In this document: in pieces, positions 8,933 to 63,868 of the stretch
Numbering within the stretch: the first letter of the stretch is position 1
How the letters are laid out: every line of letters begins with the position of its first letter
Source of the DNA: Lysobacter sp. HDW10
GTDB taxonomy: Bacteria > Pseudomonadota > Gammaproteobacteria > Xanthomonadales > Xanthomonadaceae
Assembly: GCF_011300685.1 (NCBI RefSeq)
Contig: NZ_CP049864.1
Coordinates: 984,885-1,048,884, forward strand
Direction: 5' to 3'
Length of the DNA stretch: 64,000 nt
Notes under the pieces: model-generated
What the model saw: the letters and a program-made list of their open reading frames with translations, nothing else
Told to the model about the DNA's origin: nothing
The model's database searches: none
Program-made: the position numbers and the translations under genes

Positions 8933-11900
8933 GGCCGTGCCGGCGCGTTTGCGCATTGCCCTGGTGGCCGTCGCGGCGTTGATGGCCGTGGCCATGGTTC
9001 GTCCCGGCGAACAAGCTTTAGTCTTGGGCGTCGCAGCCAACTTGGCCGCTGGCCTCGCGTTCTCTGGGCGCGAACTGCTGAAGCATTGGAAAAGTGTCCT
9101 CTCTTGGGCACTGGTGTGGGGCGTCGTTGTTTTAGGCGCGCTGTTGGTGTTGATGTGGCCTTTGTCGAAGCTCATTAAAGACGGTGGCTTACATGCCGCC
9201 ATGGGCGTGAGTGCGGCGATCGGACTCTTGCTGCTCTTGGCATGGCGTTATGCAGATGCGCTGCGCATGCCAAATGTTTTTGCGAGCGCGGCGTTCAAAG
9301 GCGCTTCAGAGCGTGCAGCAACCAACGCTTGGCCCTGGCAGGGGCTCGCCGTTGCGACGACCGTGTTGTCTGCTGTGGTCGCCATTGTCTTGTTGGCGTG
9401 GCCCGACTTGTTGCAAGGCACGTCGCGCTGGGTGCTTGCCGGTGTGGCTGCGGTTTGGATTCCCGTAGTGCATTTTTTGAAGCGTCCGTCAGGACTCACG
9501 GTTGCGGCACCCAAACCGAAAGCGACGAAGCCGGCGACTGAAAAGAGCACGACCGAAAAGCCCACGCGCGAAGCCAAGGCCAAGGCCCGTAAAAAGTCGA
9601 AAGACAAAACGCCGGCGGAAACGACGAAGCCGCGTGGCTTCGCAAGTAATGCAGAAGTGGTGTCGTTGGATGCGTTGAATTCTCTCTTGCTTACGCCGGT
9701 TGCCGATGCGAAAAGTGTTTTGCCGCAAATGACCGAAGCGACGGAAGCGGCGGAAGAAGTGCATGCACCGGTAGAAGCCGTTGAAGGCGACAACGAACAC
9801 CCTGCGCAGATCCGCATCGAAGACACCACGACCGCAACTCCCGCACCCGTCGTGCACACAGAGGCCGAGCAAGCTGTCCTCAATACTTTGCTCTACGAGG
9901 CTGCGCGCGCAGGCCGCGTCGAACAAGCGCTTGGACTCTTGAGCGAAGGCGCCCAAGCCACCGCATTGCCGCAATCGAGCGATAAAGACCAACGCAGCGT
10001 CGCCGTGCTCGCAGCCGTCTTGCCGGACCTGCGCTTGCTGCGTGCATTGATTGCGCAAGGCGCCGAACTCAATCCTGACAATGCAGCGCAGGCGCCGCTT
10101 GCAGTCGCAACGCGCGACAGTTGGCATGGACGCCCGGAAGCCGTTGCAACCTTGCTCGCCAATGGCGCCGATGCACGCCGCGCGGATGTGAACGGCAATA
10201 CGGCACTTCACCATGCAGCGCACAGCACCGACCCCGCCGTCGCTGCACTGTTGCTCGATGCATCGTCCGACATCAATGCGATCAACAGTGAAGGCGTTAC
10301 GCCGCTTTTGGTTGCCGCAAAATCCGGCAACTGGCGCGTTGCAAAATTCCTCATTGAACGTGGCGCCAAGCTCAATATCGAAGGTGCCATGCCGGCCTTG
10401 AATGCCGCGGCGCGCTGTGACGATGACGATGCCGCAGGTGTCGAGTTGTTCATCAAGCACAAAGCCAAACTCGATGCGACGGATGCCGAAGGTCGAAGCC
10501 CCGTGCACATGGCGGCACGCATGGGACATATCGGCATCATCCAAGCCTTGCTGGATCACGGCATGTCGATCACTGCGCGCGATGGCAATGGTCGTGGCGT
10601 GGTGCATCATGCGATCGAAGGCGAGACAAGCCCGGACTTCGTCAAAGAACTCTTGCACATGGGCGCACGCGCCGACTTCGAAGACGTGGAAGGTTTCACG
10701 CCATTGAAGCGTGCACGTGAGAACGCACGTTGGGCATTGGTTTCGGTCTTGGATCCAAACTTCAAACCAACGGCATCGCAAGACGCAACGCCGGTGGCGC
10801 GCGCACCGTATGCCGCAGTGTCCGATGCCTTGGCCAACGATGACCTCGAAGCCGTCAAAATCGCCGCTGTCGGTTTGAACAGCGATGAGCGCATTCGTCT
10901 CTTCGAAGAGCACGGCTTGCAAAATGGCGCCTTGGCGAATTGGTTGCTCGACAACGGTCTCGATCCGCATGCCGTGAATCGGGAAGGACAAGCGCTCGCC
11001 AGTTTGGCCGTGGTGGGTGCGACGAAATCAGGTGCACACCCCGACATCGCGCGCAGCATGTTGGCGCGTGGTGCGCAAATTAACGGACGTGGCGTATTTG
11101 CCGAGTATCTGACCGGCGTCCAAAGCTCGGGGCAAATGCGTGCGCACGAAGAACGCACGGCGCTTGAATGGTTGTCGCGGGGTGCAGACGCATTCGGTGA
11201 AAACGCAGCGGGTGAAACCCCGCTGTTTCTTGCCGTCAAACTCAGGTGGCGACATCTGACGAATGAGTTGCTCGCGCGCGGGGCTTTCCCCGACGCGCAA
11301 AATGCGCAAGGCATGACGCCCTTGCATTTGTCGATCACGCAAGGTGATCGCGACATGGTCAAGGCCTTGATCGCTGCCGGTGCGTCGCCGCGACTGCGGG
11401 CGAATGATGGACAAACCGCGCATGGTTTGGCCTTGGCCGGTGGACACAAAGCACTGATCGAGTGGGTGGATTGGCGCTTGTGGCCGTCTCCGGCGCGCCG
11501 CCTCCGTGCACAGGATTTGCCGGCTGCAGCAATCGCAGGAGATCTGCATGCCGTGAGTCGATTGTTGGAACTTGGCTTCGACGTCAACACCCGCGATGGT
11601 CAAGGCTGCACCGGACTTCTGCGCGCTGCAGGGGGTGGTCATGCCGATGTATTGTCCGCATTGATCGCGCATGGCGCCGATACCCGCATCGCTGCAGATG
11701 CAGGCGCAACACCTTTGTCAGCGGCTGTATCGATGCGCAATCTGGCCATCGCGGAGCACCTGATTGACGCCGGTGCCGATGTTGAACAACGACTGCCCGG
11801 TGATGTCACGGCATTGATGTTGGCGTCTGCATTGGGTCTGCCAAAGATGGCGGCGCTGCTGATGCGTCACGGTGCACGTGTCGATGCAGTCGACGCACAA

Positions 11901-51623: not shown

Positions 51624-52964
51624 ATGCGGGACCAGGTCAGAACGAAGGCAGCACAAGCACCGATAGATACGGCGCTCTTGCTGTGTGCGTTTGATGCGCC
51701 CGATTTTCCGCTCGGCTGCGTACAGCTCGATCGCCAGTTCCATATCGTGTCGGTCACTGCCGCAGCGTTGCGTGACATCGGCGGCACTACAGAAGACGCC
51801 TTAGGCCACGCGCTCAAACAATGGCGCTACTTGCGCCTCGAATTTGCCGTTAAGTTGATGGACGCCTTGACCTGCTTGAGTGAGGCCAATCAAACGTCGA
51901 CGGTATTTACGGAAGACGCCGAGATTGAACGTTGCTTGCGTTGGACGGTTGTGCGTTGCGAGGGGGCGAACCCGGCCGACGATCAAACGCCTGCGTACTT
52001 GCTCATCGTTGGACAAGTGCCTTACACAGGCAATCGCGACGGCGCGCAACGCCGCCTGCAAGAAGTGATGCGCGACTTATTCGAACAATCGCCTTTGGGC
52101 GAAGCGTACGTCAGCATCGAAGGCGAGTTCTTAAAATCCAACCAGTCGCTATGCAACATGCTCGGGTATACCGAAGGCGAACTGCGCAACTTGGACTTTC
52201 AACAGATTACGCACCCGGAAGATTTGTCGCGCGACTTGATGAAGGTCACCGACATGCTCGATAACAGAATCCGTTCGTACCATATTGAAAAGCGCTACAT
52301 CCGCAAGAACGGCGAGATCATGTGGGGGCATCTGTATGTCTCTGCGCACCGGGATGAGCATGGCAAAGTCACGCACTTCGTCGTCTTGATTGAAGACGTC
52401 ACCCCACGCAAGCACCTTGAGCAAAAATTCGAAGGTGAAGTTGCAAAGCTGCAAGATCAGCTGTTGATGCGGCAACAAGAAGTGACGGCGCTGCACGCAC
52501 GTTTGGATCGCTTGGCTTTGGTGGACCCCATCACCGGATTGCTCAACAAGCAGGGTTTGGATATTGAGTTGGCGCGCGCGTTTCTACTCGCCAGTGAAGA
52601 TGCCGAACCCTATGCCGTGATCGACCTGCGGTTTGAGGGCTTTGAGGCGTTTGCAAATGCACAAAGCGTCGATGCAACCAACAAACTCTTGCGCTTGATC
52701 GGCGAAAGCTTGCATCACTTGGTGCGACGCAGCGATGTGGTGGGTCGGCGTGCACAAGACAATTTTGTGGTGGCCTTGGGGCAACGTGCTGTACTTGGTG
52801 TGGGTGTGGAAGAGATTGCGCGCCGAATCGGCAATGCGATGACGAAGGACTACGACATTGACGGCGAGAGCGTGCCGCTAAAAGTGGAACTGGGGATGTC
52901 TGAGCGGCAAGAGGGCGATAGCTTGGAAGACATGTTGGCTCGTGCGCAGGTGATGCCGGCCTGA
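51624..52964 (+). CDS. PAS protein with degenerate GGDEF domain
   Basis: The 446-residue protein has an N-terminal domain of PAS type (about 25-130), a clear PAS/PAC pair (about 140-270: FEQSPLGEAYVSIEGEFLKSNQSLCNMLGYTEGEL ... RKNGEIMWGHLYVSAHRDEHGKVTHFVVLIEDVT, given in outline), a coiled-coil linker (FEGEVAKLQDQLLMRQQEV) and a GGDEF-like domain starting LVDPITGLLNKQGLDIELA. The catalytic loop is RRAQDNFVVAL instead of R-x-GGDEF, so cyclase activity is not expected. It may bind c-di-GMP or GTP, or act as a partner protein. GAGGG sits 6 nt before the ATG. It follows rpoD. Confidence 0.85.
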   Translation: MRDQVRTKAAQAPIDTALLLCAFDAPDFPLGCVQLDRQFHIVSVTAAALRDIGGTTEDALGHALKQWRYLRLEFAVKLMDALTCLSEANQTSTVFTEDAEIERCLRWTVVRCEGANPADDQTPAYLLIVGQVPYTGNRDGAQRRLQEVMRDLFEQSPLGEAYVSIEGEFLKSNQSLCNMLGYTEGELRNLDFQQITHPEDLSRDLMKVTDMLDNRIRSYHIEKRYIRKNGEIMWGHLYVSAHRDEHGKVTHFVVLIEDVTPRKHLEQKFEGEVAKLQDQLLMRQQEVTALHARLDRLALVDPITGLLNKQGLDIELARAFLLASEDAEPYAVIDLRFEGFEAFANAQSVDATNKLLRLIGESLHHLVRRSDVVGRRAQDNFVVALGQRAVLGVGVEEIARRIGNAMTKDYDIDGESVPLKVELGMSERQEGDSLEDMLARAQVMPA

Positions 52965-53164
52965 ACTGCATGGCGTTGCGCTGTGCAGCACTCGCGCGTT
53001 AGATCGCGCCAGAATTGTTTTGCGAACGCCGGAATCAGTAGCTACCTGCAAATGCAGAAAAAGCGGCCAAAACGGCGGCTGAATCATGCACGCGTCTTTC
53101 GCTTCCGTTTCACGTGAAGACTTGCAGTGTTGGGTAAACACCGCTTGGAAGTCACGAGAACCCT

Positions 53165-53641
53165 ATGACTGACGCTACTGAACTGCGTGAAAAATTCTGG
53201 AAGCATCTTGATTCAGACCGCACCGTCATGCTCTGTGCGGATGGCGTGCCGCCGCGTCCGATGACAGCGATGCGCGAAGATGAAAGTGGTCCTATTTGGT
53301 TTTTTACCTCGATTGAAACTGAAATGGGGCAAGCCAGTGAAAAGGGTCGAACACTTTCTGCAGTCATGATGCTGACCTCGAAAAATCACGAATTGTTTGC
53401 AAGCGCAGTCGGTCAGCTAAAACAAGATAACGATCGTACGGTGATCGACGCCCTTTGGAATCCCTTCATCGCTGCTTGGTTCAGCGGTAAGGACGATCCG
53501 AAGTTGCGCTTGTTGCGATTTGAACCGGAACAAGCCGAGGTGTGGGAGAACGCAAATAGCTTGTTTGCCGGGATCAAGTTGTTGCTCGGTGTTGACCCGA
53601 AAAAGGACTTCAAGGATCAAGCGAAAAAAATTGCGCTCTGA
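53165..53641 (+). CDS. Pyridoxamine 5'-phosphate oxidase-like general stress protein
   Basis: This 158-residue protein has the split-barrel FMN-binding pattern of the general-stress-protein-26 group: LREKFWKHLDSDRTVMLC, RPMTAMREDESGPIWFFTSIET, and FIAAWFSGKDDPKLRLLRFEPEQAEVWEN near the C-terminus (in outline). It probably binds flavin; the substrate is unknown. It lies after a 200-bp gap and 11 bp before the next small stress-type gene, with which it is probably cotranscribed. Confidence 0.85.
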   Translation: MTDATELREKFWKHLDSDRTVMLCADGVPPRPMTAMREDESGPIWFFTSIETEMGQASEKGRTLSAVMMLTSKNHELFASAVGQLKQDNDRTVIDALWNPFIAAWFSGKDDPKLRLLRFEPEQAEVWENANSLFAGIKLLLGVDPKKDFKDQAKKIAL

Positions 53642-53652
53642 GGCTTTAAGTG

Positions 53653-54150
53653 ATGAACCATCGCGAGGTTTACAGCACCCAAGACGTTGCCGTGGCGCGA
53701 CGCGCACTAGCCGCGTTGCACATGCATGGTATTAAGAACGATGCGATCTCCATGGTGGCGCGTGCGGATATCGAGTTGGAGCGCATTCCCAATACTTTAA
53801 AAGAAGCAGATACCGACGCGATGCCTGCTGCGATTCGCGGCATGGAAATCGGCGGCGCCACAGGATTGCTTGCAGGTCTTGTTGCGGTCGCCATACCGCC
53901 ACTTGGCATCACACTCGCCGGTGCAGTGGGCATTGCTGCAATGAGTGCATTGGTCGGTGGGTGGGCGTCCGCATTGATGGGGTCTACGGTGCCTGATCCC
54001 GTGCGTCAGCAATTTGAAGCGGAGATTGCCGCAGGGCGCGTGTTGGTGTTGGTGGATGTGCCGAATGAAGCGCGTGAGGCGGTGAATGACGCGATGGCAG
54101 AAGCCGGCGCGACGCGACTCAACTACGCCTCGCCGATGGGCGCGAAGTAA
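53653..54150 (+). CDS. Small glycine-zipper protein, stress-type, function unknown
   Basis: The 165-residue protein has an N-terminal soluble segment (NHREVYSTQDVAVARRALAALHMHGI, an alpha/beta unit of about 45 residues), a central Gly/Ala/Ile-rich hydrophobic stretch (about 70-115: GGATGLLAGLVAVAIPPLGITLAGAVG, in outline) and a C-terminal VLVLVDVPNEAREAVNDAMAEAGA unit. The layout resembles membrane-linked stress proteins of the DUF1269/general-stress 17M type, but I cannot assign it firmly. The ATG at 53653 directly follows a GTG; either may be the start. It ends 49 bp before the tRNA gene. Confidence 0.7.
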   Translation: MNHREVYSTQDVAVARRALAALHMHGIKNDAISMVARADIELERIPNTLKEADTDAMPAAIRGMEIGGATGLLAGLVAVAIPPLGITLAGAVGIAAMSALVGGWASALMGSTVPDPVRQQFEAEIAAGRVLVLVDVPNEAREAVNDAMAEAGATRLNYASPMGAK

Positions 54151-54199: not shown

Positions 54200-54517
54200 G
54201 GGCCTATAGCTCAATGGTTAGAGCAGAGGACTCATCGAAAGGTGCCGCCACGTGGAAACACGTGGACGGGAACGGGATGAATTCAAGGAACCCTCAGCGG
54301 CGCGCAAGCGGACGGTGGGAACCCTGAGCCAAGCCGGTGGTACACCATCGGAAGGTGCAGAGACTACCTGAGGGCTGAAGTGCCCTTCATAACAGGCTAG
54401 AGCGTCCCGCACCCTACCTGCCCAAGGCAGCGGGTGAAGAGATAGTCCGTCCCTGCGGGAAATCGTGGGAAAAGGCGAATCCTTTGGTTCCAGGTTCGAG
54501 TCCTGGTGGGCCCACCA
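54200..54517 (+). tRNA. ileX: tRNA-Ile(CAU), split by a group I intron
   Basis: Joining 54200-54235 to 54478-54517 gives a perfect 76-nt cloverleaf: acceptor GGGCCTA/TGGGCCC, D-stem GCTC/GAGC, anticodon stem GAGGA/TCCTT with loop CTCATAA, T-stem CCAGG/CCTGG, encoded CCA. The CAT anticodon (54233-54235) with this body fits tRNA-Ile2, whose C34 is converted to lysidine to read AUA, rather than either methionine tRNA. The intron lies directly after the anticodon. A -10-like TAGAAT sits at 54186-54191. It borders a defence island, so it may be the attachment site. Confidence 0.93.
54236..54477 (+). ncRNA. Self-splicing group I intron (IC3-like) in tRNA-Ile(CAU)
   Basis: The 242-nt insert has the hallmarks of a group I ribozyme. 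P1: exon CAT pairs with GTG at 54241-54244 across a 6-nt loop, with the required U-G pair at the 5' splice site. P2: CCACGTG-GAAA-CACGTGG (54248-54265), a GNRA-capped stem. P3 candidate: CGGGA (54273-54277) with TCCCG (54405-54409). P4: TTCAAGG with CCCTGAG. P6-type hairpin near 54334-54351. R element GGTGCAGAGACTA and S element AAGAGATAGTCC form P7 (GACTA 54362-54366 with TAGTC 54443-54447). P8: CTGCC-CAA-GGCAG. The last base is G (54477). No endonuclease ORF is present. Confidence 0.92.
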
Positions 54518-54807
54518 AATTCGACGATATGGCGCTCCGTCTGACTTCATTCGAATAAAACCAAATTGTTATACATGTTTTCAGAACGTGTATAGAAAAC
54601 GGCGAAATGTATATATGTGATGTTGGATCTGTCTAAGAAAACGGACTTCTTGAATAGATCGGCGTCGATCTACGCTCCAAGTCCGCTACAAGCGAGCCTG
54701 TCGAGCTAACGGCGGAAAAGCAACGCTGTTGCGAAAGGTGGCTTTTGACCCAAGCGATCATCGAGCAATGCATTCCACTGAGACCAGTGGCGCCGGGAAA
54801 TTGGCTA
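54518..54807. other. Spacer between the tRNA and the hamB-type gene
   Basis: This 290-bp spacer is more AT-rich near the tRNA and holds an inverted repeat but no convincing gene. I found no integrase fragment and no second copy of the tRNA 3' end in the window. Confidence 0.5.
54570..54594. repeat. Inverted repeat downstream of the tRNA
   Basis: TATACATG (54570-54577) and CGTGTATA (54587-54594) are inverted copies with one mismatch and a 9-nt spacer. It could be a protein-binding site or a recombinase arm site next to the tRNA; the sequence alone does not tell. Confidence 0.4.
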
Positions 54808-57800
54808 CTATGAATCTGCCAGATCGTCGGGACCAAGATATACGATGTGGATATCGCGGACGTCCTGAGCCAATTGTGCGCGAAGCATGCCGCCTCGATG
54901 GGGATTGAGTGCGGCCCGAACGGTGCCTAGTGGAGTTCCGTCTGGAGACAGCACCCAAGACTGGCCTGCCCACTGGTGTATCTGGACGACCGAGCCGGGC
55001 GGCGCGGGCGCAGCCATCCACGTGATGCTGCCCCGATAGTGCCGAGCCGCCCAAATGTGCTCCTCGCTCGGCGTGAAGCGCTGGACAAAATCCATCCAAA
55101 TCGGACGGGTCTCTCTAGTTGGCCAGTCCGCATGTGCACTCCAAGTGGCGACTTCCTCTGTATTCAGCCATTGCCGCAGCTCGTTTCCGGTTGCGAATGT
55201 CGCGCCTGTATCCGTGACCGCTTTGATTGCAGCGAGCCGCGAATTGAAGCCGGCTTGGATGAGGATTGACGCGGAGCGGTTGAGCGTGCCGGTAACGATC
55301 GCGGGCACCGCAAGGCCAAGTTCATAGTCTTCTAGACCTAGGCCATCTACGTCTACCACATCGCCATTTGCGATCGCGCGGACCCTAATCGCCTCCATTG
55401 CCCATGGCAGCCGGTAAATGAGGCTTCCTTCAACAAACTGAAGCATTTTGCTTGGCTGATCCCCGCCCAGCGCGGCAAGTGGCTCGCCCAGCACCCAAGC
55501 CCGCAGGATGTCGCGCCAGTTTGCGGGGAACGGGTCGGGTATAAAGGGATAGATGGTGAATACCCGCTCAGCAAGATTTGTGAGAGCAGTGATCGCAGCA
55601 TCGGCGTCACCCTCAAGAATCGCGCCATTGGCCTGGACCAGAAGTAAGTTGACCTCGGCGGCAATGGCGTCGAGGGCGTGACCCGTGGTCAAACCTACGC
55701 CTGCAAGAAAGTAGCCGCGGCGTTGAGCGGCGGTTGACTGATTCCAGATCAGCCGGCTACGGGAAAGGAGACCTGCCTTCAACAACTGTTGGAGCTGATC
55801 GTCCAGACGCTCCAGGCGTCTCTGCCACAGAGAAGATCGGAGAATGTTGTCCAAGGCAGCCTCAATCCCTTCATCGGGAACATCGTTCTCGCCGATGAGG
55901 CTGAGAATGGCTGTATCGAGCGTCGAAACGTGCCTTTCCCAATCCGCCAGGGCGCGATCCCGGTCATTTCGATCTTCGTTTTCAAGCTCGGGAAAGGACC
56001 AGGCGGCGGCGTTGTTGACGACATAATCAACGAGCTGATTCGCGTCCCCGTCGACGCGCGCTCGCATCCGCTTCAGCAGCGTAACGACCAATAGAACGAG
56101 ACCGCTCTCCATCTCGCGCGCGCCAACGTCGCTGATGAGCGTTTCCCAGTTCCGCCGCTTCGTGCGGATGTCGTCAAACATGGGGAAGAGGACTATGCCC
56201 TCAATGTCGACATAGGCCCGTCCGGCGCGCCCGATGACGTTCTTGAACTCGCTGACCGCAATCGGCTTACCGGCGCGATGTAGGGAATACATGATGACGG
56301 CTGTCGCCGACAGATTGAGGCCTTGGGCAAGAGTTGGCGAAGAGATCGTGACCTTGAGGACGTTTTCGCGTAGCAGACGCTCGACTTCCTTGCGATAGGC
56401 CGTCGGAAGCGCGCCATGGTGAAGGGCAACCCCAAGGCGCAGGCATTTGAGGATGGGGCTGCCGGCGCCTAGCCATTCCTCGCCCAGCGCGATCGCGGTA
56501 TTCAGTACGTCCGGATCGGCCGCAAGCAGCGAGACCAAGGCGCCGCGCTCATGTAGATCGACGATAACGTCGGCGAACGGTTCAACGCTGCGCCGCTCAG
56601 GGCAAAAGACAAGGACGGTCTGGCCGTCATCGACTAACCGCCACGCGGTGGCGAGGCAGAGTTCGCGCTGGTCTTTGGGGAATAGCTGGGTGCGTTGGCG
56701 CTTAGGTGGATTCCAATTTGGAGGTGCGGCGCCGCTAAGGAACCGTTGAACCCAAGGACGTTCGTCTCCTACCCTGAGGTTGAGTCGGGCGGTTGGTGAC
56801 GTCCAAACCACCTCACCGAAGCGCAGGCGGGTTGGTCGCCAGTCATTCTTGATCAGCCCGCCAGGATGATCACGGCGCAGCCAAGCGGCGAAGTCGTCGA
56901 GTTGGTCCCCATCGGGAAGGATGGCCGATAAGCAGACGATTCGGCGTTCACTAGCATCGGCACGACGCAATAGCCGTTGAATCTGCACTTCGTAACGAAC
57001 TTCACGTTCATTGAGGCCAATCATGTGCCCTTCATCAAAGATTAGAAGACCAACGTCGTCGAGCAGAGAAGGATCGTTACGGAGCGCGAAGTCTAGCTTC
57101 TCCGGAGTTGCAACCACGATGTCGCGCTCGCGAATCGCGTCTTCATCAAAGCCGGTGGCGCCGATGCTGCCGTAGAGGGCGGAGATGGTCTTGCCGAGCG
57201 GGCCGAAGGTTCGCTGGAGCGTCGCTTCAGTCTGAGCCGAGAGCGCGCGCAGTGGCGTAACAAACACCACCCTTTTGCCTCCCGCGAGGCAACGCAGGAT
57301 ACACAGTTCTGCAATTCGCGTCTTGCCGGCGCTTGTCGGCAGCGATACGACTAAGTCGTCGGACTGATCGACGGCGCGGGCGGCCGCCTCTATCTGTGAT
57401 GGCCAAAGGTCGATCTCGGCCCTATCGCGACGCTGCAACTGCGCGATGAACAGTTCGCGCAATTGCAGCCAGTCCGACGCCGGTCCTCCGGCGTGCTGCA
57501 GCGGAACCTGTTCATGTAAAGTGCTCGACCATAAGTCCGACAGAAGATGGATGGCAACACGATGCGCCCACCATTGCGGCAGCATGTTCATCTCGCCGCA
57601 GATCGCCAAACTCACACGCAGCCGTTCGAGCGCCTGATCAACCAGTTCTCGCTCGCCACGCTCGAGCGCAAGCAGATAAAGTGACATTGCAGCCATGAAT
57701 GTGTCGGTGAGCGCGGTAATCAGGCCGTCGAAAAGGAAGTCGTCACCACCGGCATCCGGAGGCTCGGCAGCTACCTCTACTTGCTCGAGGTGGGACTGCA

Positions 57801-58329
57801 TTTCAGAAGCAATCCGCTCATCTCTACCTTGACCGGAGGTCCGGTAGTCAAGGACGCTGCTGCGCAAAGCAGCGAAATTCCGCAGCATTAACTGAGCCAG
57901 CGCTCGCTCGATCAGTGAGAAATTCTCATCTGCCTCGACAATTGCGAGAAGCGAATAAGCTCTTGCTGACAGGTGGGCGAGATGATAAGCGGCTGCGGCC
58001 ATGACGAAGTGGAAATCGCGATCAGACTCCTGTCGGTTACCCTTTGCTATCACCGCCTCAAGAGATGCCGCTGCAAGTTCGAATGCCGCGCGAGCCTCAT
58101 TCTGATCGCCGCCCACCTCACGAAGACGCAGGCCTAGGCCGAGCAGGGCATAGGCATAGCTATGCAGGTCGTAGCTAAGCTGCGGTGCAAAGTCTGGCGC
58201 GTCGAGTGGCAGTGTGCCGTCACGCCAAATGATCGCGCGGGCCTGCCCGCGAGCAACCAGTTGGCCACGAAAGCCGGCGACCGTCGCCTCAGCGATATTT
58301 GCGGCGATAGCCTCAGGAGTTGTTGGCAT
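54808..58329 (-). CDS. hamB: HamB-like SF2 DEAD-box helicase (Hachiman-type defence)
   Basis: The 1173-residue protein has a helical N-terminal region (about 1-290) followed by a Ski2-like SF2 helicase: Q-like motif LWPSQIEAAARA, Walker A PTSAGKT (331-337), TPLRALSAQ, ATPEKLDF, DEGH box (432-435), SAI motif (468-470), LHHGALP, SSPTLAQGLNLSA and motif VI VIGRAGRAY. A long C-terminal region of about 430 residues follows. Together with the adjacent HamA-type nuclease this is a Hachiman-like helicase-nuclease pair, known to protect against phage. The start overlaps the hamA stop by 17 bases, implying coupling. Codon usage (GCC, GGC, CTC-rich) differs from the core genes, suggesting horizontal transfer. 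Confidence 0.82.
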   Translation of the reverse strand: MPTTPEAIAANIAEATVAGFRGQLVARGQARAIIWRDGTLPLDAPDFAPQLSYDLHSYAYALLGLGLRLREVGGDQNEARAAFELAAASLEAVIAKGNRQESDRDFHFVMAAAAYHLAHLSARAYSLLAIVEADENFSLIERALAQLMLRNFAALRSSVLDYRTSGQGRDERIASEMQSHLEQVEVAAEPPDAGGDDFLFDGLITALTDTFMAAMSLYLLALERGERELVDQALERLRVSLAICGEMNMLPQWWAHRVAIHLLSDLWSSTLHEQVPLQHAGGPASDWLQLRELFIAQLQRRDRAEIDLWPSQIEAAARAVDQSDDLVVSLPTSAGKTRIAELCILRCLAGGKRVVFVTPLRALSAQTEATLQRTFGPLGKTISALYGSIGATGFDEDAIRERDIVVATPEKLDFALRNDPSLLDDVGLLIFDEGHMIGLNEREVRYEVQIQRLLRRADASERRIVCLSAILPDGDQLDDFAAWLRRDHPGGLIKNDWRPTRLRFGEVVWTSPTARLNLRVGDERPWVQRFLSGAAPPNWNPPKRQRTQLFPKDQRELCLATAWRLVDDGQTVLVFCPERRSVEPFADVIVDLHERGALVSLLAADPDVLNTAIALGEEWLGAGSPILKCLRLGVALHHGALPTAYRKEVERLLRENVLKVTISSPTLAQGLNLSATAVIMYSLHRAGKPIAVSEFKNVIGRAGRAYVDIEGIVLFPMFDDIRTKRRNWETLISDVGAREMESGLVLLVVTLLKRMRARVDGDANQLVDYVVNNAAAWSFPELENEDRNDRDRALADWERHVSTLDTAILSLIGENDVPDEGIEAALDNILRSSLWQRRLERLDDQLQQLLKAGLLSRSRLIWNQSTAAQRRGYFLAGVGLTTGHALDAIAAEVNLLLVQANGAILEGDADAAITALTNLAERVFTIYPFIPDPFPANWRDILRAWVLGEPLAALGGDQPSKMLQFVEGSLIYRLPWAMEAIRVRAIANGDVVDVDGLGLEDYELGLAVPAIVTGTLNRSASILIQAGFNSRLAAIKAVTDTGATFATGNELRQWLNTEEVATWSAHADWPTRETRPIWMDFVQRFTPSEEHIWAARHYRGSITWMAAPAPPGSVVQIHQWAGQSWVLSPDGTPLGTVRAALNPHRGGMLRAQLAQDVRDIHIVYLGPDDLADS

Positions 58330-59092
58330 TTGCGATCACTCGATCGTAGACCGCGCCGATAAATTCGGCATGGCCTTCCACGCGAAGTCCGATACCCCAT
58401 TGAGTGATAGGGCCGGAATACGCTTGCAGGGAAGCGGTTAGCAATGCGTCTGGGGCATTGCCTGAGAATGTGAAAAGCAGATGCCGAACACTCTGCGGCG
58501 GGACGCCATGCTTGAGCAGCGCGTCGTCGATTGAATCGGCCAGCGGCTGATTGCCAAGTTCGAGGAGACGTGCGGAAATAAAGTGCAGTGCGTGGGCTGA
58601 GGGCAATCCTCCATCTTTGTCCAGACCGGCGCGCGCCTCGGTCAGGACTTGCGCGGACAAACGGACGCGGCTCTTCGCCTCAGTCTTCAGGAACTGAAGA
58701 CGATGAGTTTGTGGGTCTTGGAAGATGCCGATTACGTCATCACCCCGCATTGCCATGTTGCGATGATCTTTCCATCGCAGTCGTTTGATGGGCGCGCGGT
58801 AGCCGCCGCTATGAGCGTCTATCCATTCCGCCGCGTAGATTTCAGCGAGGTCGCCGGAGCGGATCTGCTTAGTCGTGGGCAGCAGACTCTCGATCTGGGC
58901 GGCGGCCGCTTGCTTGCCAAGTCGCGCGAGTGCACGCGCGATCTGCTCCGCCGAGGCGTAATGCGTAGGCACGACAGCCGCCGTCGCCTGAATGCCGACC
59001 CCTAGGTTGGAGGTCTGTCCTGTTATGACTCGCAGGCGATTGTTACCCACCGGCGCTTCAACCGAAATGCACCAATCATCGAACTGCGCCAT
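58313..59092 (-). CDS. hamA: HamA-like nuclease (DUF1837, Hachiman-type defence)
   Basis: The 259-residue protein matches the DUF1837/HamA layout: SGDLAEIYAAEWID (acidic residue E84), LRWKDHRNMAMRGDDVIGIF (D118/D119) and LQFLKTEAKSR (E138, K140), i.e. an E...D...ExK PD-(D/E)XK active site. The C-terminal half (ARLLELGNQPLADSIDDALL, HLLFTFSG) fits family members. HamA is the effector nuclease activated by HamB. It starts 6 bp after the upstream nuclease gene and overlaps hamB, so the three genes look like one transcription unit. All catalytic residues appear intact. Confidence 0.8.
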   Translation of the reverse strand: MAQFDDWCISVEAPVGNNRLRVITGQTSNLGVGIQATAAVVPTHYASAEQIARALARLGKQAAAAQIESLLPTTKQIRSGDLAEIYAAEWIDAHSGGYRAPIKRLRWKDHRNMAMRGDDVIGIFQDPQTHRLQFLKTEAKSRVRLSAQVLTEARAGLDKDGGLPSAHALHFISARLLELGNQPLADSIDDALLKHGVPPQSVRHLLFTFSGNAPDALLTASLQAYSGPITQWGIGLRVEGHAEFIGAVYDRVIANANNS

Positions 59093-59098
59093 CGTCTT

Positions 59099-60043
59099 TC
59101 ATTCCTGCCAGTTAGGGAAAAGGTCGCGTATGCGGATGAAGGGTGCGCCGGTTTCTGCTGCGCGACGGACTTTGCGCTCGAGGACCTGAGTAAGAGGGAT
59201 TTCACGGTTGAGCATTTCGTATAGATCGAGACCATCCATGCAGATGACCCTTTTTCCGCGTCCAAAAGCGGCGAGGCCATCTTCAGTGAAGCCACTATTG
59301 CTCACAAAAAGACCGCGGGTCCAGGCCGCCTTTTGTTCGATCTTGCCATGGAAGGTGTGCAGCTCAGAGACGCCGATCGGCGGCCCGTGCCATTTGGCCT
59401 CTAGCAGATAAATCTCGCTCGCGAGCTGAAAGCTGCCGTCGATCTGTTCACCGCGAAGCCGGAACGGCTCTTGTGCGGCTAGACCAAAGGCGTCGAACAG
59501 GCCTTTTAAGAAGCCCTCAAATGCATAGCCGCGAGCTTGCGGCGCCATCGCCGCTACGGCCAACAGATCCGCTTTGATCTTGGCGATAGTCGCGGGGTTT
59601 ACGGGAGGAGGCTGTGGGCCCAATGAAGACCGCGACGGATTGGAGCCCCGCGTTAGGCGGGTGATCAAACCTTGGTAGCGGATCTGGGCATTCACGATCG
59701 GATCGACACTGCCGGAACGAGTCAGAAACTCGCTGCGATGCTCCCAGAGCGCTTCAAGGGTGCGAACGGCGGTCCAGTCATCACAGGTCTGAATGAAATG
59801 TCGGAGGCGCTTGCCCTTCGATCGGCCATTGACCGCGTATTTAGGATCGTCGATGTTGATCTTTAGTTCGGTGGCGAAGAAGTCCGAGAAGCTTCTGTCG
59901 GAAAAATCCAACACGAAGCCTGGTCCTCTGACGAATTCGACGAGGTCGTCAACTAAACGTAGGTCAATAGATCGAAGCGAGTTGATGATTCCCCCCTTCC
60001 CCGCAGGCAGCCGAAAGAGGCTGTCGATCGCCTCTTGAAGCAT
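59099..60043 (-). CDS. Mrr-like PD-(D/E)XK restriction endonuclease, first gene of the defence operon
   Basis: The 314-residue protein has a C-terminal Mrr-cat-type nuclease (about 160-285): GYAFEGFLKGLF (E176), RGEQIDGSF (D202) and LLEAKWH (E215-x-K217), then LHTFHGKIEQKAAWTRGLFVSNSGFTEDGLAAF, which is typical of Mrr-type domains. The N-terminal half (LVEFVRGPGFVLDFSDRSFSDFF ... YAVNGRSKGKRLRHFIQT) is a separate domain that I recall in other defence-associated nucleases but cannot name with certainty. It is first in a tight minus-strand cluster, 6 bp before hamA. Whether it is part of the Hachiman-like system or an independent defence gene is inference. Confidence 0.78.
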   Translation of the reverse strand: MLQEAIDSLFRLPAGKGGIINSLRSIDLRLVDDLVEFVRGPGFVLDFSDRSFSDFFATELKINIDDPKYAVNGRSKGKRLRHFIQTCDDWTAVRTLEALWEHRSEFLTRSGSVDPIVNAQIRYQGLITRLTRGSNPSRSSLGPQPPPVNPATIAKIKADLLAVAAMAPQARGYAFEGFLKGLFDAFGLAAQEPFRLRGEQIDGSFQLASEIYLLEAKWHGPPIGVSELHTFHGKIEQKAAWTRGLFVSNSGFTEDGLAAFGRGKRVICMDGLDLYEMLNREIPLTQVLERKVRRAAETGAPFIRIRDLFPNWQE

Positions 60044-60853: not shown

Positions 60854-63800
60854 ATGCGCGTCAAGGAATGCACAATCGAGCAAGAGCTGATTGAAAAGCT
60901 CGGCGACCTGAAATACACCTTGCGCGCTGACATCCGCGATCGAGCTGCGCTGGAACGCAACTTCCGCGAAAAGTTCGAGGCGCTGAACAACGTCACCCTC
61001 ACCGACGCAGAGTTCCACCGTCTGCTAGATGAAATTGTCACGCCCGACGTGTTCAAAGCAGCGCAAACGCTGCGCAACCGCAACGCCCTCACTCGCGATG
61101 ACGGAACGCCCCTGAATTACACGTTGGTGAACATCAACGATTGGTGCAAGAACGATTTTGAGGTTGCCAGTCAGTTGCGTATCAACACTGATTACAGTCA
61201 TCACCGCTACGACGTAATCCTGCTCATCAATGGCGTGCCCGCCGTGCAGATCGAACTAAAAACACTGGGTATCACCCCGCGCCGCGCCATCGAGCAGATC
61301 GTCGAATACAAGAACGATGCCGGCAACGGCTACACCCGCACATTGCTTTGCTTCATACAACTTTTCATCGTCAGCAATCGCGACGCGACGTACTACTTTG
61401 CCAACAACAACACCCGTCATTTCGCCTTTAATGCGGACGAGCGCTTCCTGCCGATCTACCAGTACGCCGCACCGGACAACAGCAAGATCGGCGGCCTTGA
61501 TGCTTTTGCCGATGCTTTCCTACCGAAGTGCACGCTAGGCCAGATGATCAGCCGCTACATGGTGCTGCTGGCGAGCGAACAGAAGCTGCTGATGATGCGG
61601 CCGTATCAAATCTACGCCGTGAAGAATATCGTCGAGTGCATCGATAAAAACCTAGGCAACGGCTATATCTGGCACACCACCGGCAGCGGAAAAACGCTCA
61701 CCAGTTTCAAGGCATCAACTCTGCTCAAAGCCAATCCGGCAATCGAGAAGTGCTTGTTCGTGGTTGATCGCAAAGACCTCGATCGCCAGACCCGCGAAGA
61801 ATTCAATCGCTTCCAAGAAGGCTGCGTGGAAGAGAACACCAACACCGGCGCGCTCGTGCGACGCATGTTGTCCGACGATGCCGCCGACAAGGTCATTGTA
61901 TGCACTATCCAGAAACTGGGCTTGGCGTTGGACGGTGGCAGCACGCGTAACCAAAGTCGCGAGAAGCGCGGTCTCAACAGCCATGCCGAACAATTGGAAG
62001 TTCTGCGCGACAAGCGCATTGTCTTCATCTTCGACGAATGCCACCGCTCGCAGTTCGGAGAGAACCATCAAGCCATCAAGACGTTCTTCCCCAACGCCCA
62101 GTTGTTTGGTTTCACCGGTACGCCGATTTTCGAACAGAACGCCAGCTACAAGCGCATCGAGGGCGAGGAACAGACTTTAAAAACCACCGAAGACCTGTTC
62201 CAGAAGCCCCTGCACGAATACACGATCACCCACGCCATCGAGGATCGGAACGTCCTGCGTTTCCATGTCGATTACTTCAAGCCCGACGGCAAGCACCCGG
62301 TGAAGCCTGGCGAGCCACTTGCCAAGCGCGCCATAGTCGAGGCCATCCTAAACCGACACGATACGGCCACGGGCGGTCGCTGCTTCAATGCGCTACTAGC
62401 CACCGCGTCGATCAATGATGCCATTGAGTACATCACGCTGTTCAAAAGCGCGCAGGCTGAGAAGCAGCAATCAGATTCAAACTTTGTGCCGCTCAAAATC
62501 ACTGCAGTGTTTTCACCGCCCGCTGACGTCAGCGCCGACGTGAAGCAGTTGCAAGAAGACTTGCCGCAGGAGCAGGCCGACAACAAGAAGAATCCCGAAG
62601 AAAAGAAGACCGCGCTGGCGGCCATCATCGCCGACTACAACGCTGCGTTCGGCACCAACCATCGTATCGAGGAGTTCGATGGCTACTACCAAGATGTGCA
62701 AAAGCGCATCAAGGATCAACAGTTCGCCAATGCCGACCTGCCAAGAAAAGGCCGCGAAAAGCTGGACATCGTGATCGTGGTGGACATGCTGCTCACCGGC
62801 TTCGACAGCAAGTATTTGAACACCCTGTACGTGGACAAGAACCTCAAGCACCACGGCCTGATCCAGGCGTTCAGCCGCACCAACCGCGTGCTCAACGACA
62901 CGAAACCGTATGGCAACATCCTCGACTTCCGCGGCCAGCAGAAGGAAGTGGATGCCGCCATCGCGCTGTTCTCCGGCGTCAAGGCCGAACAGGCGCGCAC
63001 CATCTGGCTAGTGGACACCGCACCGGTGGTGATCGAGAAGCTCAAGGAAGCGCGCGACCAGCTCGCCAGCTTCATGGCCTCGCAGGGCCTCAGCGGGAAA
63101 CCCGAAGACATCGCCAACGTCAAGGGCGACGCCGCCCGCGCCGGCTTCGTCGAGCGCTTCAAACAGGTGCAGAAGCTGAAGACCCAGCTGGATCAGTACA
63201 CCGATCTGGACGACGCACAGAAACAGCAGATCGAAACGATCCTGCCCCGTGATGAACACAACGCGTTCCGCGGCGCGTATCTGGAAACCGCGCAGCGCCT
63301 GCGCGCGCAGCAGGCCAAGCCGGACAGCAAGAAAAACGAGGACATCGACCAGCTCGATTTCGAGTTCGTGCTGTTCGCCTCCGCCACCATCGACTACGAC
63401 TACATCATGAAGCTGGCGGCCGATATCTCCATGCAGCCGGCCGGCAAGGCCAGCATGAGCCGCGAGCAGTTGATCGGCCTGATCGCCGGCGATGCCAAGT
63501 TCATCGACGAGCGCGAGGAGATCAGCGAATACGTGCGCGGCCTCAAGGCCGGCGCCGGCCTGGACGAGGCCGCCATCCGCGCCGGCTACGAGGCCTTCAA
63601 GCAGGACAAGGCCGCCCGCGCGCTGGCCGCGGTGGCGGACACGCACGGCCTGCCGGTCGCCCGCCTGCAGGCCTTCGTCGAAGCCGTGCTGGCCCGCCGC
63701 ATCTTCGACGGCGAGGCGCTGACCGCACTGCTGGCGCCACTGGAACTGGGCTGGAAGGCGCGCGCACAGAAGGAGGAGGCACTGATGCGCGACCTGATCC

Positions 63801-63868
63801 CGCTGCTGCGCAAGCGCGCCGGCGGGCGCGAGATCGCCGGGCTGAAGGCTTGGGAGGAGGCGCGGTGA
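60854..63868 (+). CDS. hsdR: Type I restriction enzyme, R subunit
   Basis: The 1004-residue protein begins with an HsdR N-terminal nuclease domain: RYDVILLINGVPAVQIELK supplies D120, E134 and K136 of the PD-(D/E)XK site. The SF2 motor follows: Walker A HTTGSGKT (274-281), LFVVDRKDLDRQTREEF, the DECH box (FDECHRSQFG), FGFTGTPIF, DIVIVVDMLLTGFDSKYLNTLYVD and QAFSRTNRVL. A helical C-terminal domain binds the methylase core. It is closest in style to type IC (EcoR124I-like) HsdR. GGAG sits 5 nt before the ATG. Codon use becomes markedly richer in GC after about 62750. The stop overlaps the hsdS start by one base. Confidence 0.95.
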   Translation: MRVKECTIEQELIEKLGDLKYTLRADIRDRAALERNFREKFEALNNVTLTDAEFHRLLDEIVTPDVFKAAQTLRNRNALTRDDGTPLNYTLVNINDWCKNDFEVASQLRINTDYSHHRYDVILLINGVPAVQIELKTLGITPRRAIEQIVEYKNDAGNGYTRTLLCFIQLFIVSNRDATYYFANNNTRHFAFNADERFLPIYQYAAPDNSKIGGLDAFADAFLPKCTLGQMISRYMVLLASEQKLLMMRPYQIYAVKNIVECIDKNLGNGYIWHTTGSGKTLTSFKASTLLKANPAIEKCLFVVDRKDLDRQTREEFNRFQEGCVEENTNTGALVRRMLSDDAADKVIVCTIQKLGLALDGGSTRNQSREKRGLNSHAEQLEVLRDKRIVFIFDECHRSQFGENHQAIKTFFPNAQLFGFTGTPIFEQNASYKRIEGEEQTLKTTEDLFQKPLHEYTITHAIEDRNVLRFHVDYFKPDGKHPVKPGEPLAKRAIVEAILNRHDTATGGRCFNALLATASINDAIEYITLFKSAQAEKQQSDSNFVPLKITAVFSPPADVSADVKQLQEDLPQEQADNKKNPEEKKTALAAIIADYNAAFGTNHRIEEFDGYYQDVQKRIKDQQFANADLPRKGREKLDIVIVVDMLLTGFDSKYLNTLYVDKNLKHHGLIQAFSRTNRVLNDTKPYGNILDFRGQQKEVDAAIALFSGVKAEQARTIWLVDTAPVVIEKLKEARDQLASFMASQGLSGKPEDIANVKGDAARAGFVERFKQVQKLKTQLDQYTDLDDAQKQQIETILPRDEHNAFRGAYLETAQRLRAQQAKPDSKKNEDIDQLDFEFVLFASATIDYDYIMKLAADISMQPAGKASMSREQLIGLIAGDAKFIDEREEISEYVRGLKAGAGLDEAAIRAGYEAFKQDKAARALAAVADTHGLPVARLQAFVEAVLARRIFDGEALTALLAPLELGWKARAQKEEALMRDLIPLLRKRAGGREIAGLKAWEEAR

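Follow-up and report, generated by a model that had tools for sequence, protein, structure and literature searches.

A group I intron with a P7.1/P7.2 extension in the anticodon loop of tRNA-Ile(CAU) of Lysobacter sp. HDW10, and structurally different group I introns found at that position in bacteria

Here we report a 242-nt group I intron that interrupts the tRNA-Ile(CAU) gene of Lysobacter sp. HDW10, a member of the Xanthomonadaceae, immediately 3' of its CAT anticodon. The split gene occupies positions 54200-54517 of the window, by which we mean the whole 64,000-nt stretch of contig NZ_CP049864.1 that was analysed, and the intron lies at 54236-54477 (Table 1). The Rfam group I model RF00028 matches positions 54224-54469 with 52.2 bits (E 2.2e-10, cmscan), barely over its gathering score of 50, and this is its sole match in the whole genome. 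In silico splicing at 54236/54477 yields an intact 76-nt tRNA with the three-letter anticodon CAT at position 34; when the 5' site was fixed at 54236 and 16 candidate 3' ends (54470-54485) were tried, only 54477 gave a 76-nt CAT tRNA. ARAGORN finds no tRNA in the unspliced window and labels the spliced product Met(cat), because it cannot separate Ile2 from Met.

A first-pass annotation, made from the DNA letters alone, had proposed an intron with these boundaries, which proved exact to the base. Its further claims about the host tRNA, the insertion directly after the anticodon and the restoration of the tRNA by intron removal agree with the 76-nt ARAGORN product; the P1 helix with a U-G splice pair, the GAAA-capped P2, P7 and the terminal G that it listed were every one found, and the group I class that it named is upheld by the significant Rfam match and by covariation in homologues. 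Its attribution of the DNA to a probable xanthomonad was right as well. Single-strand folding of the pre-tRNA (z = -3.15) is supportive, not decisive. A promoter and terminator scan returned none on the plus strand. A 110-aa open reading frame on the minus strand (54218-54550) overlaps the whole intron and was judged mechanical. The intron has no room for an endonuclease gene beside its core, and no homing-endonuclease family was found by Pfam among 8 neighbouring proteins.

Table 1. Features of the intron-bearing tRNA-Ile(CAU) gene, in window coordinates
Feature	Position	Strand	Evidence or details
tRNA-Ile(CAU) 5' exon	54200..54235	+	ends with anticodon C34-A35-U36
Group I intron, 242 nt, terminal (omega) G at 54477	54236..54477	+	RF00028 match and in silico splicing
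tRNA-Ile(CAU) 3' exon, encoded CCA included	54478..54517	+	
P1: exon CAU and intron C1 with G6 and guide GUG; U36-G7 wobble; GAAA loop	54233..54244	+	
P2, 10 pairs, GAAA loop	54245..54269	+	two-sided changes in 6/10 pairs (11 homologues)
P3 5' strand, partner 54403-54409	54273..54279	+	
P4 5' strand, partner 54322-54327; A-C mismatch 54286/54324	54283..54288	+	
P6 and P6a	54328..54356	+	
P7 5' strand (R element), bulged A; partner 54443-54448 (S element)	54360..54366	+	
P7.1/P7.2 extension between P7 and P3	54367..54396	+	P7.1 CCUG/CAGG around P7.2 AGGGC/GCCCU
P3 3' strand	54403..54409	+	
P8	54410..54436	+	
P9.0 (54449-54450 with 54475-54476) around P9 (54452-54469, GAAA loop)	54449..54476	+	

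The window intron contains the P3/P7 pseudoknot core together with P4, P6 and P8, with one A-C mismatch in P4. Covariation was assessed in 11 homologues from 13 loci, omitting L043, which has the same intron as L042, and L044, which has degenerate exons. In this alignment 95.1% of cells pair and two-sided changes occur in 22 of the 74 proposed pairs; the covariation score of 0.249 compares with a shuffled mean of 0.103, and none of 500 shuffles scores as high. Two-sided changes also affect 20/64 pairs in 23 more distant introns of the window type, and 3 of the 5 pairs of P7.2 in the same set; P7.1 is invariant there and therefore offers no covariation test. All 6 pairs of P7 are invariant in both sets, and the U-G at the 5' splice site is present in 11/11 close homologues and 23/23 wider window-type introns. 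In the 23 distant introns, P9 as drawn is formed in just 60% of cells. The 3' splice site at G54477 is supported by the 2-bp P9.0 adjoining the omega G, which holds in 59 of the 60 class-B introns among those listed (the window type, defined below, the window itself included), with pairs of the GC, GU and AU kinds. The P4 A-C mismatch, which could weaken folding, is shared with a sister genome (G003), the pair being otherwise G-C (9/11 close and 23/23 window-type introns); the intron of another carrier in the genus (G008) is free of it. The introns of the window and of G003 show 4 differences, of which 3 fall in unpaired stretches and 1 keeps its pair. P10 appears weak by eye.

Scanning a collection of one genome per species (84,980 species) yielded at least 118 loci, at least 92 of which splice to an intact CAT tRNA that is of the Ile2 type by sequence; all classes agree in their insertion point. 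Such introns are thus commoner here than the first-pass annotation had supposed, and some of this ground is already covered in print (PMC8450103). Classes were set by the segment after P7, and their counts, which are taken among the matches listed, are not frequencies. The IC3 class, without an extension, comprises at least 21 loci (20 spliced, 201-224 nt), and the window type, class B, at least 62 (59 spliced, 228-334 nt). The GCGG variant B2 accounts for at least 6 loci (5 spliced) and the GUGAGGAGCC variant D for at least 12 (8 spliced); judged by eye, both variants appear to bear P7.1/P7.2. Of the 118 loci listed, 17 fitted no class, some being plainly no introns, and for another 9, although a class was assigned, no spliced tRNA could be obtained within the limits applied. 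By their record titles, the listed IC3 loci are betaproteobacterial in 20 of 21 cases, the other (L101) being titled only Proteobacteria; the titles of the listed B loci mostly name gammaproteobacteria or Proteobacteria.

Several related elements were observed elsewhere. A genome of the same class carries, in a different tRNA, an intron with a P7.1 segment like that of class D (L237). Three viral contigs (L224, L225 and L227) start within an intron of the window type and continue across the 3' exon of tRNA-Ile, and a tyrosine integrase gene then follows in L224 and L225. Temperate phages appear to integrate in intron-bearing tRNA-Ile genes. Another viral contig of 14.6 kb (L226) holds five group I matches to the model R1 (see below) within about 2 kb (9199-11266). 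In a further viral sequence (L228, 9574-9829, minus strand), an intron with P7.1/P7.2 interrupts a tRNA-Leu-like gene, its insertion point apparently lying immediately ahead of the anticodon loop.

The structural subgroup of the window intron was evaluated with three models, namely R1, built with the window included; R2, built from 20 of the 21 listed IC3 introns of the tRNA-Ile(CAU) site; and R3, built from 23 of the 62 listed class-B introns with the window's own genome excluded. The sources searched were hand-chosen from all loci (54 for R1, 57 for R2 and R3). The window intron scores 228.1 bits with R3 and 51.4 bits with R2 (E 1.3e-15), and the R1 scores give the same gradient. Sixteen exon letters are common to each model and the Ile introns, an advantage to the latter that leaves the order of scores unchanged. 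Introns of other genes each side with one type: the psbA introns of cyanophages S-SRM01 (138.1 bits with R3, 36.3 with R2) and S-PM2 (127.7 and 26.0) with the window type, and the introns of tRNA-Leu (L242; 52.3 bits with R3, 99.6 with R2) and tRNA-Arg (L238; 51.1 and 105) with IC3.

P7.1 and P7.2 together are given as the mark of subgroup IA2 in the available parts of PMC3428280, PMC4227781 and PMC4498298. This hallmark is present in the window intron and absent from the segments of the 21 listed loci classed as IC3. An IC3 assignment was rejected, since P7.1/P7.2 are present, P7.2 covaries and R3 scores 177 bits above R2. A strict IA2 assignment was rejected as well: only P9.0 and P9 fit in 54449-54477, and because P9.1/P9.2 are absent we use the label IA-like rather than IA2. 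We therefore class the window intron as an IA-like, P7.1/P7.2-bearing group I intron rather than an IC3 intron. The first-pass annotation, which made no mention of P7.1/P7.2, had proposed that it is a relative of the Azoarcus tRNA-Ile intron and had suggested searching with IC3 models; close kinship with that IC3 intron is not supported, given the extension and the far worse fit of an IC3 model of the very same site.

The occurrence of two architectures at one splice site raises the question of how often this site was colonised. A core tree of 125 sequences, with P7.1/P7.2 removed and 124 columns kept (L236, which has no clear intron, and some other phylum loci were omitted), parts the window type from the IC3 set by a branch with support of 98/99, the odd one out being L136; these support values need care, because the search missed a better tree, with the Leu/Arg introns on one side and a log-likelihood 11.29 above that of the core tree. 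The exceptional L136, on an Opitutia contig, interrupts tRNA-Ile(CAU) and combines an IC3-like core with P7.1/P7.2, scoring 118.4 bits with R2 and 154.5 bits with R3; it may be a mosaic or an intermediate, or its contig may be mis-binned. An IC3-like 3' end is found in 6/8 class D and 4/5 B2 introns among those listed.

It is likely but unproven that the IC3 and window types colonised the site separately, a course that we judge about twice as probable as a single colonisation. It remains a probability because the AU tests do not reject a single clade of all Ile introns (p 0.153) and a better tree was found. Change in situ or recombination is possible, given the mixed character of L136 and the IC3-like 3' ends of classes D and B2. 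A single ancient insertion, from which all tRNA-Ile(CAU) introns would descend, the IC3 and P7.1/P7.2 forms having developed at the site itself as the extension was gained or lost or as phage introns recombined with them, is rather unlikely yet deserves serious weight. The insertion point is identical in all classes, and the AU result, the higher-likelihood tree, the double match of L136 and the 3' ends of the D and B2 introns all speak for it; against it, phage psbA introns side with the window type and tRNA-Leu/Arg introns with IC3, in the model scores and, with caution, in the core tree. Returning to separate colonisation, we find it conceivable, if somewhat short of probable, that the anticodon of tRNA-Ile2 is a hot spot taken by IC3 ribozymes and by IA-like ones, kin to those of phage psbA, independently or through core swapping, since the tRNA serves the rarest of the isoleucine codons and for that reason would tolerate slow splicing. 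If this were true, mosaics such as L136 would be snapshots of subgroup conversion at a fixed splice site.

On a shorter evolutionary scale, the intron is present in 3 of the 17 genomes of the genus, whereas 11 have an intronless tRNA and 3, which are 83-91% complete, show neither. In two carriers (G003 and G008) the upstream flanks correspond to those of genomes with an empty site, and rpoD lies upstream of the tRNA in both G003 and the genome of the window (G000), which points to a single orthologous locus at which the intron was gained or lost among sisters. In G000 about 2.6 kb of other genes separate rpoD from the tRNA. Relocation of the tRNA in G000 was considered, as its immediate upstream flank matched no sister locus, and rejected, as rpoD lies upstream just as in G003. 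The interval between rpoD and the tRNA (51624-54150) encodes PAS-GGDEF, pyridoxamine-oxidase-like and unknown 166-aa proteins and differs from that of G003.

Within the family, 39 of 297 genomes match R1. Thirty of the matches, at 231-302 bits, all show P7.1 and on splicing yield a CAT tRNA with an Ile2 sequence. Of the remaining 9, at 30-62 bits, 8 resemble, by eye, IC3 introns in tRNA-Leu(UAA), 5 of which could be cut out by pattern, and the ninth ends at a contig edge. Two group I types hence occupy two tRNAs within one family, tRNA-Ile(CAU) and tRNA-Leu(UAA) (L203, L204 and L206-L211). Downstream of the window tRNA, a defence cluster begins about 290 bp past the gene (54808-60043 on the minus strand and 60854-63868 on the plus strand) and contains Hachiman HamB (1839 bits) and HamA (376 bits), an Mrr-like endonuclease and a type I restriction HsdR. 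An att duplication flanking the defence genes was sought and rejected, the 25-nt tRNA 3' end being single-copy in the genome with up to 3 mismatches allowed.

The genome consists of one contig of 2.18 Mb, in which 40 intact tRNAs are visible. Two of them have a CAT anticodon, and these we take from their sequences to be the elongator and initiator Met tRNAs. No tRNA with a TAT anticodon is among the 40, and a 46-nt pattern, with as many as 3 mismatches allowed, found no intronless Ile(CAU) tRNA in this genome. The 16S rRNA model RF00177 has 0 matches in this copy of the genome, and tRNA-Ile(GAU) and tRNA-Ala(UGC) were likewise not seen; with the rRNA region out of view, the sole-copy claim has a gap. 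The intron-bearing gene is thus probably the only Ile(CAU) copy in the visible genome, rRNA region aside, and the count of other such genes that the first-pass annotation had proposed gave none within that scope. The tilS gene is present, above its cut-off. AUA accounts for 29 of 18548 codons, or 3.4% of Ile codons, in 41 mechanically chosen window ORFs of at least 200 aa. From these data we infer that splicing would be essential for the cell. A dead pseudo-tRNA with a decayed intron, AUA being read in some other way, would accord with the P4 mismatch, the marginal RF00028 score and the rarity of AUA, and is nevertheless very improbable: the exons are intact, the core is conserved, only 4 mild differences separate the intron from that of G003, tilS is kept, and no other Ile(CAU) or TAT tRNA is visible.

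We consider it very probable that the only tRNA-Ile(CAU) gene in view bears an IA-like group I ribozyme in its anticodon loop. Splicing would proceed as follows. On folding of the pre-tRNA, P1 would form between the anticodon CAU and the intron guide GUG; a guanosine bound in P7 would attack after U36, and the freed U36 would then attack after the terminal G54477, joining the exons. The exons are probably kept in place by the anticodon stem and not by a P10 helix, much as the anticodon stem of an Anabaena pre-tRNA reportedly aligns its exons. TilS would finally make lysidine at C34, and the tRNA would read AUA. The two transesterifications, self-splicing and guanosine dependence are predicted from the anatomy of the intron and from knowledge of its family.

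The tRNA-Ile intron of Azoarcus ranks among the leading model ribozymes, and a second architecture at the same bond provides a natural matched pair, in which exons and guide pairing are equal and the periphery is different, and makes testable both the role of P7.1/P7.2 in folding and speed and the interconversion of subgroups. Genomes like this one may seem to be without an essential tRNA, as ARAGORN found none here, and annotators should be warned that such an apparent absence may reflect an intron.

Among known systems, the intron of Azoarcus BH72 is inserted after U36 in pre-tRNA-Ile(CAU). It belongs to IC3 and shares with the window intron the host tRNA, the insertion point, the U-G splice pair, a core of about 200 nt and the terminal G; in this comparison the 20 IC3-type Ile introns stand in for the Azoarcus sequence. 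The Azoarcus type is without P7.1/P7.2 in the available part of PMC4498298, whereas the window intron has 242 nt, P7.1/P7.2 and a different P9/P9.0. That the window intron is itself of the Azoarcus type is extremely improbable, since the identical tRNA and site, the broadly similar core and the significant R2 match are outweighed by the extension, by the advantage of R3 over R2 and by the better fit to R2 of the L242 and L238 IC3 introns, which lie in other tRNAs.

Phage T4 td and other IA2 introns likewise carry P7.1/P7.2 between P7 and P3, and td is said to resemble the Syn and Azo IC3 introns save for the P7.1/7.2 extension (PMC4498298, in the portion accessible). The IA2 introns of IStrons carry P9.1/P9.2 too, according to the accessible text of PMC4227781, whereas in the window intron P9 is accompanied by P9.0 alone. 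The cyanophage psbA introns are close to it in the P7.1/P7.2 segment, with identity over 62 nt of 80.6% (S-PM2) and 85.5% (S-SRM01), but differ in their protein-coding host gene, in the endonuclease genes annotated nearby and in their ends. The psbA region of S-SRM01 (L229) contains three R1 matches (188-436, 885-1121 and 1336-1575), which suggests several introns in a single gene. The tRNA-Leu(UAA) IC3 introns of the same family are also group I introns in a tRNA anticodon loop, but occupy another tRNA and are without P7.1/P7.2, and the three tested score 62.0, 38.0 and 30.8 bits with R1.

For tRNA-Ile2 itself, the tRNAscan-SE 2.0 paper (PMC8450103) reports, in the part available, group I introns in Acidovorax and Burkholderia and attributes to group I introns the apparent lack of fMet or Ile2 tRNA in 36 genomes. 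These introns occur in the same tRNA of other taxa, and that part of the paper does not give their subgroup, structure or site. Within the accessible sections of the open-licence papers searched, no P7.1/P7.2 intron in tRNA-Ile2 was found described. The tRNA-Ile(CAU) introns of Azoarcus, Acidovorax and Burkholderia are already in print, and the P7.1/P7.2 structural type, with its gammaproteobacterial spread in tRNA-Ile2, is described here.
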